This document shows positions 5,314 through 30,056 of a stretch of DNA of 40,675 nucleotides, piece after piece. The stretch comes from Flavobacteriaceae bacterium (lineage in GTDB: Bacteria > Bacteroidota > Bacteroidia > Flavobacteriales > Flavobacteriaceae), in the NCBI GenBank assembly GCA_009886625.1, contig QXZA01000010.1, positions 1 to 40,675 of the forward strand. Direction: 5' to 3'. Each line of letters opens with the position of its first letter. The first letter of the stretch is position 1. Made by a program: the position numbers and the translations under genes. Below the pieces are notes generated by a model. That model searched no databases, was not told where the DNA came from, and saw only the letters and a list, made by a program, of their open reading frames with translations.

Positions 5314-6528
5314 TTATAGACTAAAAAGATAAAAAACAGTAAAGCCTGTCAAAAAGAGCAAACCCAACACACTCAAAATTCGTAATCCTCTCTTTGGCTT
5401 GTCTTTTTCAGGCATTTGATTACTTATCACTAAACGGTAATTTAAGAATGCATAAAGAGGTGCAGTAATAAACGAGAGTACAGTTGCAATTTGGACTAAT
5501 TGTCCCATTTCAGACAAAAGAAAAAGGAAGATACAACCCGTACCGATCGCGAGAATAAGCATCCAGTGTGTGTAGAAGTTGGTATCTTTTTTATTAAAGA
5601 GCAATTGAATAGTTTTGGACATAGCCCGTGGTGAAGCGTCAAGCGTTGTAAGCGTTGTGCTAAGCATGGTCGTAAAAGCTGCAATACCAATAATACCGTA
5701 AGCTGCATCACCCAAACTTGAAGTGTATAATTGAATGAGTTGTCCTGCAAAAACTCCTCCTTGATTTGAAAACTCAAGTCCTGTCCCAAACATAACCAGA
5801 GCGCCTAATCCAAGAAAACAAAGGGCTAATATAACAGTAGCTAAATAACCTACATTAAAGTCAAAAAGACTTTCCTTAAGACTCGCTTTTTTGGGGCTTG
5901 TTTTGTTTTTTTCTAGGGTCCAAATAGAATGCCAAATTGAAATGTCTAAGGGTGCGGGCATCCAACCCAAAAACGCAATCAAGAATAAAAGACCTGTTTG
6001 ATCTGGAAAAACTTGTTGCAAGGAAATTGGCTGTTCATTTTTAAAGAAGGCAAAAACCAGAGCTAGGACACTACTCACAGCCAAAACCGCCATGATAATT
6101 TTAATCAATTTGTCCAACCAACTATATTTCCCCAAAAGAAGAAGTATACCACAAATCACAGTGATAGCCACACTCCAAGTTACGACATCAGTGGTAATAC
6201 CAAATAAAGTGGTTGCGATTCCTGCGGTAACAACAGTTACCGCACTTTGGATAGTGAACATGGTACCAAAGTTGAGAATGAAATAGGCCCATAAATAGCC
6301 TTTTCCTAATTTGAAATAACCATCCAATAAAGTTTCTCCAGTAGCTTGCGCATATCTTGGCCCGTATTGAAAAAATGGATATTTGAAAAGATTGATTAGT
6401 AACAGCGCCCAAACTAAACCCCAGCCAAAATCTGCACCTGCACGAGTAGATTGAACCAGGTGGGAGACACCAATTGCAGCGCCTGCAAATAATAAACCTG
6501 GACCGAGTTTTGAGAGTTTAATTTGCAT
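5314..6528 (-). CDS. Nramp-related divalent metal transporter, noncanonical site
   Basis: A 404-aa polytopic protein with about 11 hydrophobic segments and the Nramp opening GPGLLFAGAAIGVSHLVQST. In canonical Nramp proteins the first membrane helix carries DPGN and helix 6 carries MPH, which build the Mn/Fe site. Here the equivalents read AAIGVSHL and GWMPAPLDIS, so Asp, Asn and His are not in their usual places. Such members are known in Bacteroidota, but their substrate is not predictable from canonical relatives; Mg2+ or another ion is possible, as for the NRMT branch. The start codon overlaps the sigma factor stop region by 11 nt, so the two are translationally linked. Confidence 0.85.
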   Translation of the reverse strand: MQIKLSKLGPGLLFAGAAIGVSHLVQSTRAGADFGWGLVWALLLINLFKYPFFQYGPRYAQATGETLLDGYFKLGKGYLWAYFILNFGTMFTIQSAVTVVTAGIATTLFGITTDVVTWSVAITVICGILLLLGKYSWLDKLIKIIMAVLAVSSVLALVFAFFKNEQPISLQQVFPDQTGLLFLIAFLGWMPAPLDISIWHSIWTLEKNKTSPKKASLKESLFDFNVGYLATVILALCFLGLGALVMFGTGLEFSNQGGVFAGQLIQLYTSSLGDAAYGIIGIAAFTTMLSTTLTTLDASPRAMSKTIQLLFNKKDTNFYTHWMLILAIGTGCIFLFLLSEMGQLVQIATVLSFITAPLYAFLNYRLVISNQMPEKDKPKRGLRILSVLGLLFLTGFTVFYLFSL

Positions 6529-7078
6529 CTTTTTTTAATAAGGTAGCTAACATTTTTTTTGCGCGGAATAATTTTACGCGAACCGTGGAGGCAGATTCAT
6601 CTAATTTTTTTTCAATTTCTTTATAGGATAGGTCCTCAAAGTAGCGCATCTTTAAAATTGTTCGATATTCTTTTTTCAATGATTTTATATGACTGAGTAT
6701 TAAATCTAAATCTTGATTTGAAATCATAAGGTCCTCTGGAGAAGGTTCTAGATCCTGAGGTTCATAAGTATCGTTTTCGTCAATTTCCTTGTGGGTAACG
6801 TTTTCTTTTTGTGTTCTTCTAAAACGATCAATTTGATGATTTTTTGCAATCGTCAAAATCCATGCAATAAAAGGTTGTTCCTCATCAAATAGAGCAAGTT
6901 TGTCAAATGCCTTTGCAAAAGTTTCAATCGCCAATTCTTCAGCCAACGTATAATTTAAAGTTCTATCATTTAAAAAAAAAAATAATGCATCCCAATAAGA
7001 GTTGAAAAGGAGGTTGAAAGCGGTTTGATCTCCAGCTTTGGCACGCTTGATTATTTCTTTTTCAACTTTAGCCTCCAT
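6518..7078 (-). CDS. ECF-type RNA polymerase sigma factor
   Basis: A 186-aa sigma-70 family protein of group IV size. Region 2 covers about residues 12-83 (AFNLLFNSYWDALFFFL to FIAWILTIAKNHQIDRFRR) and region 4 about 130-180 (LKKEYRTILKMRYFEDLSY, then KEIEKKLDESASTVRVKL as the -35-recognising HTH). No anti-sigma gene follows in the usual sense: the next gene is the Nramp-like transporter, overlapping by 11 nt, and the preceding gene is a small membrane protein 9 nt upstream. A membrane partner controlling it is therefore not evident, although the small upstream protein is a candidate by position. Confidence 0.92.
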   Translation of the reverse strand: MEAKVEKEIIKRAKAGDQTAFNLLFNSYWDALFFFLNDRTLNYTLAEELAIETFAKAFDKLALFDEEQPFIAWILTIAKNHQIDRFRRTQKENVTHKEIDENDTYEPQDLEPSPEDLMISNQDLDLILSHIKSLKKEYRTILKMRYFEDLSYKEIEKKLDESASTVRVKLFRAKKMLATLLKKDAN

Positions 7079-7502: not shown

Positions 7503-7769
7503 ATGCCCCGAATTAAATTATTTTTTATGTTTACAACTACCCAAACTAGAATTAATAATTCTTTGATAAGTAAGGAAATGGTGATTCTAAAGTCAATTGC
7601 CCTTGGTTTAGACTGCGGTATAATCAGAAAACTTATTGAGATATCCGAAAGTGAGTATCAAAACGTTTGCCAAAAAGTATTTTATAAGCTTCAAGTTGGT
7701 AATGGTTTTGCAGCAGTACAAAAAGCATTTCAAATTGGACTGTTAAAGCAAAAGGAGTACACCAACTAA
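7503..7769 (+). CDS. Small LuxR-type HTH protein
   Basis: An 88-aa protein whose residues about 25-85 look like a degenerate LuxR/GerE helix-turn-helix: ISKEMVILKSIALGLDC corresponds to the conserved L..RE.EVL..IA.G at the start, and FAAVQKAFQIGLL to the final A..A...GLL helix. The normally conserved NKEIA and TVK..R segments are replaced by GIIRKLIEISESEYQNVC. A CATATTTG at 7480-7487 (one mismatch to TAnnTTTG) precedes it. ATG 7527 (MFTTTQTR) is an alternative start. No receiver domain is attached. It lies immediately upstream of the decayed CRISPR-Cas locus but there is no evidence that it belongs to it. Confidence 0.6.
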   Translation: MPRIKLFFMFTTTQTRINNSLISKEMVILKSIALGLDCGIIRKLIEISESEYQNVCQKVFYKLQVGNGFAAVQKAFQIGLLKQKEYTN

Positions 7770-7895
7770 AAGATAAAAGGATTAGCGCTTGAATTTGCAA
7801 CCAAAAATTTGGAAAATATTAAGGTGATTTCAGGAACAGTTTCTAAAAATAGTCTCTGGGTCTTTTATGATCTACTTCTAGATTTTGTAACATAA
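7770..7895 (+). other. In-frame open fragment after the HTH gene
   Basis: Directly after the TAA at 7767-7769 the same frame stays open for 41 codons and ends at TAA 7893-7895; it reads protein-like (ALEFATKNLENIKVISG, then NSLWVFYDLLLDF). It has no start codon of its own near the beginning. It could be the former C-terminus of the HTH protein, cut off by a nonsense change, or a fragment of an unrelated gene. I do not recognise the family. Confidence 0.25.
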
Positions 7896-7926
7896 TTAGA
7901 GCAAACCTAAGACTCTTATACCCTTG

Positions 7927-7998
7927 AAAAATAAAAATCCTACAGAAGAGGGATTTGAGAATTCATCTACGGCTTCTAGCCTTATTGTGATAAGATTT
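7927..7998 (-). ncRNA. tracrRNA-like gene of decayed type II-C CRISPR-Cas
   Basis: Read on the minus strand the segment shows the parts of a type II-C tracrRNA in order. First comes an anti-repeat ending ATCTTATCACAAT (7996-7984). It is followed without gap by AAGGCTAGAAGCCG (7983-7970), the short nexus hairpin with stem GGCT/AGCC; the junction ACAATAAGGC is the same as in the Neisseria meningitidis tracrRNA, as I recall it. A spacer GTAGATGAATTCTC leads to a terminator hairpin AAATCC/GGATTT (7956-7951 with 7940-7935) and a T-rich tail to 7927. It points away from the cas9 fragment, and a perfect -7 element sits at 8004-8011. About 72 nt long. No functional cas9 remains next to it. Confidence 0.72.
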
Positions 7999-8003
7999 AA
8001 AAA

Positions 8004-8011
8004 CAAATCTA
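8004..8011 (-). promoter_or_regulatory. -7 element for the tracrRNA-like gene
   Basis: TAGATTTG on the minus strand matches TAnnTTTG exactly and would start transcription near 7998, just at the anti-repeat. It lies 13 nt in front of the divergent cas9 fragment start. No -33 TTG at standard spacing is seen. Confidence 0.55.
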
Positions 8012-8024
8012 TAAATTTTTTAAT

Positions 8025-8333
8025 ATGCCTAATCTTTTAGGATTATCTATCGATGTAAATGGAATCGGCTAAGCGTTGCTTGATCAACAGAGTCTTCAAA
8101 TTAAGGCAATGGGTTCGAGGGTCTTTCCTGTTGGTTGTGAAAATTTTGTAGAACGAAAAACAGGATGGCTTTCACATAACCCAATTAAAGTATTGATGAA
8201 TTCCATTCGAAAATTGGAGTATAAAGATGAATTTAACCTATTTATAAAGCTCAAAAAACCTACGTATGAAGTAATTCCCTTTCGCAAATGCCCATGTATT
8301 GTTATGCTTTACTTAGAAAGTATTAAAAATTAA
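8025..8333 (+). pseudogene. Decayed 5' fragment of type II-C cas9
   Basis: From ATG 8025 the frame reads MPNLLGLSIDVNGIG, then an in-frame TAA (8070-8072), then ALLDQQSLQIKAMGSRVFPV and on to a stop at 8331-8333. Cas9 proteins begin with the RuvC-I motif ILGLDLGTNSIGWALV, followed in II-C members by a loop and a strand like I..MGSRIFPxG.E. The match is position by position: the stop replaces the Trp of IGWAL, and the catalytic Asp of LDLG is Ser (residue 8). Downstream, LSHNPIKVL corresponds to the SKNA.R segment before the bridge helix and RKCPC to the KMCPL end of it, now with most arginines lost. Only about 100 of over 1,000 codons remain; HNH and the rest are absent. TTG 8076 could open the distal part but a functional product is unlikely. 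Confidence 0.78.
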
Positions 8334-8372
8334 TGCTGAAGGCATTCATAACATTCATTAAATAAATATAGT

Positions 8373-8386
8373 GTTGTGGTTTGATT
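8373..8386 (+). CRISPR. Single CRISPR repeat-like remnant
   Basis: GTTGTGGTTTGATT lies 40 nt after the cas9 fragment. Many Bacteroidota type II-C repeats start GTTGTG (recollection, not a search). Its first 13 bases can pair with the anti-repeat of the tracrRNA-like gene with nine Watson-Crick pairs, two G-U pairs and two adjacent mismatches, which is the pattern of a repeat:anti-repeat duplex. No second copy or spacer array is present, so this is a solitary relic. The remaining gene-free bases to 8418 show nothing else. Confidence 0.4.
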
Positions 8387-8418
8387 GATTTTTTTGTGAA
8401 AGGGATTGCTTTCTCGTA

Positions 8419-8919
8419 TTAAAAGAGTTGAGTTCTAAATTCCCAAAGTATTTTTATGAAATAGTAGGCAAAGGCTAAGCCTATTAATAATTTTAAAAAG
8501 ACCCCTGTTAAGAAACCGATTAACGCACCAAAAGCAGCTTTTAAGGCCCCCTTTTTATTGTTTTGATTTACGTAAAGTTCCCCAAGAAAAGCACCGCAAA
8601 AAGGACCGATAATCAAACCAAAAGGCCCTAAAAATAGAATGCCAATAATAATCCCTAAACTACTTCCTACGGTACTTCCCCTTCCGCCACCAAATTTTTT
8701 GGCTCCCAATATAGGTATTATGTTATCCAACAGAAATATGAATAACGCAATGCAAAAACAGAGGATTAAAAAACGATTTTCAATTTTTACTATGGAAGAA
8801 AATCGAAGAAGAAATAATCCAAACCAAGATGTTAATGGTCCTGGAATAATAGGAAGAAAACTACCTGCTATTCCCAGTAAAATGAAAAACCCTGAAAACC
8901 CAATAATAAGTGCATCCAT
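8419..8919 (-). CDS. DUF456 family membrane protein
   Basis: A 166-aa very hydrophobic, glycine-rich protein with about four to five membrane segments. The opening GIAGSFLPIIPGPLTSWFG and the central GSSLGIIIGILFLGPFGLI plus GPFCGAFLGEL are hallmarks of DUF456 (PF04306), a family of unknown function with a pseudo-repeat structure. It starts at ATG 8919 and is transcribed alone, divergent from the lipoprotein gene at 9013. Confidence 0.88.
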   Translation of the reverse strand: MDALIIGFSGFFILLGIAGSFLPIIPGPLTSWFGLFLLRFSSIVKIENRFLILCFCIALFIFLLDNIIPILGAKKFGGGRGSTVGSSLGIIIGILFLGPFGLIIGPFCGAFLGELYVNQNNKKGALKAAFGALIGFLTGVFLKLLIGLAFAYYFIKILWEFRTQLF

Positions 8920-29943: not shown

Positions 29944-29953
29944 TAATGTTAAA

Positions 29954-30004
29954 CGAGGAAGGATTTGACTGATTGCACACCTCGAAAAAAAAATGCTAAA
30001 CCAG
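29954..30004 (+). promoter_or_regulatory. SAM-II-type riboswitch for the metK operon
   Basis: P1 is CGAGG (29954-29958) with CCTCG (29980-29984). The loop reads AAGGATTTGACTGATTGCA and the 3' single strand runs through an A-rich linker to TGCTAAA (29994-30000) and CCAG. This follows the SAM-II pattern known from Alphaproteobacteria and Bacteroidota (P1, then GAUUUaAC...UUGCA, closing P1, A-rich linker, GCUAAA for the pseudoknot). The ligand would be S-adenosylmethionine, the product of the first gene. Bases 29956-29966 can alternatively pair with 30030-30040. The start codon is 30057, so the aptamer does not itself cover the ribosome site. Confidence 0.82.
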
Positions 30005-30056
30005 AGTTGCTTTTTTTAAACAACTGTTTAAATCCTTCCTAAAAAGCAATAAATAA

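Follow-up and report, generated by a model that had tools for sequence, protein, structure and literature searches.

Remains of a probable domesticated, nuclease-dead Cas9 module in a Flavobacteriaceae genome and its counterparts in related genera

In Bacteroidota, a dead CRISPR nuclease, dCas12f, is encoded beside a sigma factor, and RNA-guided transcription has been proposed for this pairing with a transcription factor. It belongs to a nuclease family other than that of the locus described here, whose neighboring ECF sigma factor gene is not kept and lost together with cas9. In Francisella novicida, a chromosomally encoded guide (scaRNA) with 11 bp of complementarity places Cas9 at a 5' untranslated region, and a lipoprotein gene is thereby repressed with no cutting of DNA (PMC12231574). 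The scheme proposed below resembles the Francisella case in its guide of short complementarity and in repression without cutting. The Francisella protein, however, is a type II-B Cas9 that has kept its nuclease, whereas the present Cas9 has lost the nuclease, and an immune locus was not observed. TldR proteins are nuclease dead and domesticated, retain their guide RNA, and repress with guides for which 6 nt suffice; the clade of the cited study is phage encoded and lies beside flagellin genes (PMC13418256). TldRs are derived from TnpB, whereas the present module is derived from Cas9, has a tracrRNA, and occupies one chromosomal slot.

The active type II-C systems of the Flavobacteriaceae (for example, those of G120, G106, G261, and G370) encode a homologous Cas9 of about 1,130 aa that matches the module copy of genome G013 at 39 to 43%. 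Their tracrRNA core, common to all eight active II-C loci examined, is near-identical to that of the module, and their repeat start, GTTGTGGTTTGATTAAAG..., shares its first 14 nt with the module repeat. Arrays of GTTGTGGTTTGATTAAAG... were found in seven of the eight loci; the period was 65 to 66 nt in six and 56 to 65 nt in one, and one locus had no array in the stretch examined. The active systems differ from the module in that all catalytic residues are present and in that cas1 was found in both genomes tested.

The window, by which we mean the whole stretch of DNA analyzed, comprises 40,675 nt of contig QXZA01000010.1 from a Flavobacteriaceae genome (GCA_009886625.1). We consider it likely, with a probability of roughly three in four, that it contains what is left of a nuclease-dead, domesticated Cas9 module that would have served, when intact, as a natural RNA-guided DNA-binding regulator. 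The module is descended from a type II-C immune system but is not one. An earlier reading, made from the sequence only, had described the ruins of a type II-C immune locus; the derivation from a II-C cas9 locus holds, and the immune function does not. The features at and around the module are the following.

6521 to 7078, minus strand: ECF-type sigma factor gene, a neighbor only (Pfam sigma-70 regions 2 and 4)
7530 to 7958, plus strand: broken GerE/LuxR-type HTH gene (tblastn, 47% to the HTH protein of G012, E = 4.4e-32; translation with stops)
7926 to 8000, minus strand: remnant of the tracrRNA gene (DNA profile match, E = 1.2e-18)
8025 to 8150, plus strand: 5' end of the dead cas9, about codons 1 to 42 (match to residues 1 to 43 of an intact syntenic Cas9)
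8141 to 8150, plus strand: deletion junction in cas9 (comparison with sister genome G026)
8148 to 8255, plus strand: 3' end of cas9, about codons 1094 to 1128 (tblastn, E = 2.8e-6; G026 comparison)
8261 to 8288, plus strand: closing stem of the guide RNA unit, 5' arm (window copy, duplex z of -5.2 and fold z of -4.8)
8351 to 8372, plus strand: guide-like stretch ACATTCATTAAATAAATATAGT (about 22 nt directly before the repeat, conserved)
8373 to 8388, plus strand: repeat-like GTTGTGGTTTGATTGA (pairs with the tracrRNA anti-repeat; duplex of -13.5 kcal/mol in the window copy)
8394 to 8419, plus strand: closing stem of the guide RNA unit, 3' arm (duplex and fold z of the window copy)
8419 to 8919, minus strand: DUF456 gene, the syntenic boundary outside the module (Pfam PF04306, E = 2.1e-34)

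The sequence-only reading had been built on three pieces, a minus-strand tracrRNA-like gene, a plus-strand cas9 start, and a repeat-like sequence, and all three are genuine, with matches far above chance. The profile that identified the tracrRNA gene and a crRNA-unit profile, which matched the window at 8348 to 8411 (E = 7.6e-16), were each made from seven relatives, with the window left out of both. From the window alone, the cas9 start gave a weak match to TIGR01865 (E = 0.0062) and no match in a Pfam search, so its identity was settled by relatives. Positions 8025 to 8153 share 65% identity with residues 1 to 43 of an intact syntenic Cas9 (E = 3.3e-12), and a second comparison with relatives gave 64% (E = 5e-13); the translated comparison with Cas9 that had been suggested for the frame at 8025 is thus convincing through syntenic relatives and weak by TIGR01865. 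The RuvC-I region of the piece reads LGLSIDVNGIG, and an in-frame TAA interrupts it at codon 16 (8070 to 8072). The HTH gene has an in-frame stop at 7767 to 7769 and additional stops downstream. The broken frame of the window also gave weak matches to a family of leucine-rich effectors, which were judged to be chance.

Two parts of the locus had escaped the sequence-only reading, namely, the end of cas9 at about 8148 to 8255 and the conserved guide-like stretch before the repeat. In the window, the first approximately 42 codons of cas9 are fused in frame to the last approximately 35, and about 3.15 kb is missing between them relative to G026. The G026 gene has ...GAAAATTTTGGATCGG... near its start and ...AATAATTTTGGAGAACG... 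near its end, the window fusion reads ...GAAAATTTTGTAGAACG..., and AATTTTGGA flanks, in G026, both ends of the stretch that is missing from the window. This loss is an in-frame deletion, explained most simply by the short direct repeats AATTTTGGA. Together with the stops in cas9 and in the HTH gene, it bears out the large internal deletion and subsequent point decay that had been supposed. The original cas9 stop is bypassed in the window by a frame shift, and the window tracrRNA has an intact anti-repeat and nexus and a decayed terminator hairpin in which pairs have been lost. The G026 cas9 is damaged elsewhere than the window copy, by two in-frame TAA codons.

The locus was compared across 42 genomes, 31 of the 38 of the window's genus and 11 others, mostly draft or metagenome assemblies. 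In the genus, the gene order is lipA, an Nramp-like transporter gene, the ECF sigma factor gene, and a small ORF, followed by the divergent module and then by the DUF456 gene on the minus strand; the module itself is arranged as HTH gene, tracrRNA (minus strand), cas9, and crRNA-like unit. DUF456 was present in all 42 genomes, and the other flanking genes are present in the genus irrespective of cas9. A Cas9 match was found in 9 of the 38 genomes of the genus, the window's included. G012 and G013 carry the complete gene, the G019 copy is divided between two contigs, and partial copies remain in G027 (C-terminal half) and in G017, G024, and G036 (tails). The synteny comparison of the interval between the HTH and DUF456 genes, which had been proposed as a check, found an intact locus there in relatives. 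Outside the genus, the slot beside DUF456 holds an unbroken full-length cas9 in G208, G079, G247, G102, G227, and G403. In the same slot, the gene of G209 is in two frames, G326 has a fragment at a contig end, and in G210, a record of Candidatus Arcticimaribacter, the contig stops within the gene. The module thus spreads over the window's genus, four other labelled genera (g40, g63, g184, and g204), and G208 to G210; G158 and G197 contain module relics.

The HTH gene is part of the module in most lineages. It is intact in four relatives (131 to 140 aa), with two of the four homologues above the Pfam GerE cutoff and the other two without a Pfam hit, and within the genus it occurs without any cas9 sequence as truncated copies only (G007 and G023). 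The g63 and g184 loci have a different upstream gene, and no HTH gene was found there. The ECF sigma factor gene is found in 30 of the 31 same-genus genomes regardless of cas9 (in the exception, G033, the stretch ends early), and none was found beside the G247 module. Since it is present with or without cas9, it is an unlikely partner and was rejected as such; the linked gene is the GerE-type HTH gene. In G024 (L045, 2781 to 3290), a separate deletion has produced an in-frame fusion between the HTH gene and the end of cas9, with an open frame that might be expressed. At L192 and L193 (G158 and G197), L049, L185, and L050, module deletions stop short of the 3' end of cas9 and of the guide RNA unit.

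The intact proteins of the dead clade are 1,118 to 1,143 aa long, and their assignment to the Cas9 family is based on NCBIfam, a PDB sequence search, and a tree. Three intact copies scored 345 to 366 bits against TIGR01865, whose cutoff is 100, and the cut G210 copy scored 331. The RuvC-I aspartate is replaced in the dead clade by serine, tyrosine, phenylalanine, or arginine, and by histidine in G227 and G403. In every readable copy, the HNH Glu-His pair is replaced by V, I, S, or L and by Y or M, and the RuvC-III aspartate is replaced by V, L, K, N, H, or Q. The RuvC-II glutamate is retained in 7 of the 11 readable copies, the RuvC-III histidine is retained in G079, G102, and the G027 fragment, and the HNH asparagine is retained in all readable copies. 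In the active Cas9s, by comparison, these residues are D (RuvC-I), E (RuvC-II), E-H and N (HNH), and H and D (RuvC-III) in all 12 whose sites are readable; the 13th, from G450, is an 86-aa fragment that covers none of these sites. An AlphaFold model from five sequences was uninformative (pLDDT, 46).

Dead and active Cas9s are split with an ultrafast bootstrap value of 100 in a tree of 22 sequences that includes the 86-aa G450 fragment and the cut G210 copy, and the dead sequences form a single clade when the tree is rooted by the longer Cas9s. The dead clade is under purifying selection, with dS values that are rough and near saturation. Its dN/dS was 0.10 to 0.15 in four pairs, two of the six pairs being saturated; dN and dS were 0.375 and 2.56 for G013/G012, 0.284 and 2.96 for G227/G403, and 0.273 and 2.19 for G019/G026. 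Pairs of active Cas9s gave dN of 0.105 to 0.150, dS of 1.19 to 1.44, and dN/dS of 0.09 to 0.11. Relative to the active Cas9s, with region borders set by the author, the C-terminal PAM-interacting region (CTD/PI) is the best conserved and RuvC-III is the worst. Catalysis has thus been lost while the protein and the RNA parts have been kept under selection.

A predicted tracrRNA with an anti-repeat is present at the module loci. In an alignment of 13 copies, the anti-repeat CTTATCACA[AC]TAAGGC and the nexus stem are found in all. Across three helices, 96.2% of cells are paired, and both sides have changed in 7 cells; the sequences are related, so the shuffles used for these pair statistics serve as a guide only. 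Repeat and anti-repeat were computed to form duplexes of between -11 and -18 kcal/mol in each of nine cases. A TAnnTTTG-type box, which we take to be of the Bacteroidota type, lies just upstream of the window tracrRNA in the direction of transcription, and such a box precedes many of the other copies. The active II-C locus of G261 has a second, diverged tracrRNA-like copy just past the first (L122, about 5091).

In the crRNA-like unit, the guide-like stretch stands directly 5' of the repeat-like GTTGTGGTTTGATTGA. Its last 12 nt, AATAAATATAGT, are identical in every one of the eight units from outside the genus that were tested (G079, G247, G208, G209, both units of G210, G158, and G197); in the relic G197, the end of the repeat is changed. 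Within the genus, the seed and the 16-nt repeat are perfect in all nine genomes that retain any cas9 sequence, and one or the other is altered in all four genomes that have the unit without cas9 (G003, G021, G023, and G034). The guide unit of G210 is tandemly duplicated with the same guide, the copies lying 185 nt apart (L109, 91 to 154 and 276 to 339). At L188, L190, L191, and L194 (G102, G227, G403, and G326), the dead cas9 is followed by two guide units with different conserved seeds, which in the g63 and g184 genomes are AGTTAAAATTT and a drifted ...ATAGT.

The arms of the closing stem covary. Over 23 units, with those of G227 and G403 left out because the search pattern missed them, a unit's own arms averaged -23.5 kcal/mol, compared with -16.0 kcal/mol for arms swapped between species, and none of 20,000 permutations was as good as the own arms. 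The own arm was the best partner in 10 of the 23 units, a fraction lowered by the sharing of arms among close relatives, and there was little signal in G102_A and G326_A. Among the four cas9-less genomes with a unit, the stem is lost in three (z of 0.7, -1.0, and -0.2) and kept in G003 (z of -4.6). The closing stem may also serve the convergent DUF456 gene as a terminator. In the guide RNA alone, the repeat is able to pair with sequence upstream of the guide, perhaps as a switch or as a competing fold.

Comparative sequence analysis thus shows a dead protein under selection, RNA parts, and the decay of these parts together with cas9. The intact module of the relatives consists of a full-length, II-C-derived Cas9 without catalytic residues, a tracrRNA encoded 5' of it on the minus strand, and a built-in guide after cas9, to which most lineages add the small GerE-type HTH protein. 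From these we infer that the tracrRNA and guide would load the dead Cas9 and that the loaded protein would use a short PAM-proximal seed (about 9 to 12 nt, ending in AATATAGT) to bind chromosomal DNA and would regulate transcription without cutting. Most tentatively, the PAM may be NARTNA, the targets may be promoter elements of a -7-like type (TNAYTN-ACTATATTT on the coding strand) that belong to genes for surface and secreted proteins, and the HTH protein may be the partner of the dead Cas9. In the window genome, the module has been ruined by the in-frame deletion and point decay.

Searches of the chromosomes for targets gave mixed results. Matches of 17 nt to the guide numbered 21 in seven genomes, compared with 25 for the reversed control, and no near-full-length guide targets exceeded the control. 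Matches to an 11-nt seed were clearly above the control only in G247 and G012. In G247, 9 of the 10 such sites outside the locus are followed by NARTNA; in five other module genomes, NARTNA follows 3 of 26. At the locus itself the sequence that follows is GTTGTG, so the locus would not be bound by its own complex if NARTNA is the PAM. The motif AAATATAGTNARTNA, derived from G247, was counted in 35 genomes with the reversed pattern as the control. Forward and control counts were 27 and 5 in the nine genomes that have the module and this seed (the G026 copy being damaged), or 17 and 4 without G247, and 7 and 26 in the 13 same-genus genomes without the module; comparison of 17:4 with 7:26 gave a Fisher p of 2e-5, a contrast that is partly due to the high control counts in the module-less genomes. 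Forward counts per genome were about 2.1 with the module versus 0.5 without it. The corresponding counts were 5 and 7 in seven relic genomes, 2 and 4 in four genomes with other seeds (those with two guides), and 4 and 4 in two genomes with an active Cas9. The excess comes mainly from G247, G210, and G209, and there is none in G208 (1:2), G079 (2:2), or G019 (0:0).

Ten of the 17 AAATATAGTNARTNA sites in the module genomes other than G247 are located 4 to 52 nt upstream of a start codon and read TNAYTN-ACTATATTT on the gene strand. Three of the seven sites in module-less genomes also precede a start codon (two of these three inside the preceding frame), so position alone proves nothing. The genes that follow such sites include those for SusC-type receptors (an orthologous pair in G208 and G209, and G247), lipoproteins, and secreted proteins, and some of the G247 sites fall within signal-peptide codons. 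One site is also present in the window's own genome (G000), which lacks a functional Cas9, and it lies ahead of a SusC-type gene. The candidate target motif resembles a general promoter box. The PAM-like NARTNA and the surface-protein promoter sites are accordingly best treated as candidate targets, a lead only. We regard as possible but rather doubtful a wider reading in which the dead Cas9 has held one slot since the ancestor of several genera, its seed mimics the complement of the -7 element, and it acts as a global regulator of surface and secreted protein promoters with NARTNA as the PAM and the GerE-type HTH protein as its partner, which would make it the Cas9-lineage counterpart of the TldR and dCas12f regulators; our estimate for this wider reading was lowered because start-codon sites also occur in the module-less genomes.

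In G208 and G209 (L105 and L110), the intergenic region of PRODH and aroB has a 15- to 18-nt guide match in a conserved hairpin before the proline dehydrogenase gene. As a general target this site was rejected: it was found only in these two genomes among 24 upstream regions listed and lacks the putative PAM. The PRODH gene itself occurs in 27 of 30 genomes. A search with the first guide (AGTTAAAATTT) of the lineages that have two guides turned up no orthologous site in common beyond the locus.

An ordinary decayed type II-C immune locus that has lost cas1, cas2, and its array, as the sequence-only reading had it, would account for a Cas9, a tracrRNA, and a repeat that are clearly derived from the II-C systems of the family. 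That reading took cas1, cas2, the HNH domain, and the array to have been lost from this place, whereas no cas1, cas2, or array was seen at the locus in the relatives with an intact module, whose Cas9 has already lost its active-site residues. The same minimal set, the dead sites, and the fixed guide recur in complete copies from several genera, and purifying selection continued after catalysis was lost. A search for cas1 was negative in all 14 module or relic genomes and positive in both active controls; many of these assemblies are incomplete, with G079 and G102 at 99% completeness. Visual inspection of the larger ORFs next to cas9 in module-bearing relatives showed no cas2, and the module locus has no CRISPR array but one unit, or two in G210, G102, G326, G227, and G403. 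An immune ruin is thus very improbable. A module that is selfish or functionless baggage everywhere and merely slow to decay would fit its repeated loss or ruin in the genus, where 29 of the 38 genomes, some of them incomplete assemblies, have no cas9 match. It is hard to square with open frames of about 1,130 codons that persist at near-saturated synonymous divergence with the low dN/dS given above, and with guide and repeat changes that occur in the genus only where cas9 is wholly gone; we consider it extremely improbable.

That the dead Cas9 and its fixed guide block a mobile element or phage without cutting, rather than acting on host genes, is unlikely. The built-in single guide, the origin in an immune system, and the lack of a strong chromosomal target would suit such a role, but a phage target was rejected because a 19-nt guide pattern occurred in five IMG/VR contigs versus eight for the reversed control, a chance level, with four of the five contigs sharing one sequence context; a guide that is constant across genera would also be ill suited to fast-changing elements. 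No relatives of the dead Cas9 were confirmed in viral contigs, phage records gave one distant match (22.4% over 30% of the query), and plasmid matches reached at most 24.3% identity among the 20 of 50 matches listed. Alternatively, the RNA unit could be mainly cis-acting, as a 3' untranslated region of cas9, a terminator, or a switch, with the dead Cas9 doing something unrelated to DNA binding, such as RNA binding. The long closing stem does adjoin a convergent gene, the 3' end has been spared by deletions in several relics, and the repeat can pair within the unit. Against this, the seed and repeat stay constant while the stem changes in sequence with compensation, the pairing of repeat and anti-repeat is kept, and CTD/PI is the best-kept part of the protein, which together make a cis-acting unit quite improbable.

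The domesticated, RNA-guided dead Cas9 that we favor, if borne out, would mean that Cas9, too, and not only relatives of TnpB and Cas12, became a regulator. Laboratory dCas9 is a man-made mutant, whereas the module seems to be nature's own, derived from type II-C and long kept with a fixed guide. No report of a natural dead Cas9 was found in the literature searched, which was covered in part (listings, with few subscription papers or preprints). The find supplies parts that can be tested, namely, the protein, the tracrRNA, the guide, a candidate PAM, and candidate promoters, and some stray tracrRNA or repeat fragments in CRISPR-less genomes could have such an origin. Elsewhere in the window, a SAM-II riboswitch is located at 29949 to 30009 on the plus strand (71.4 bits).
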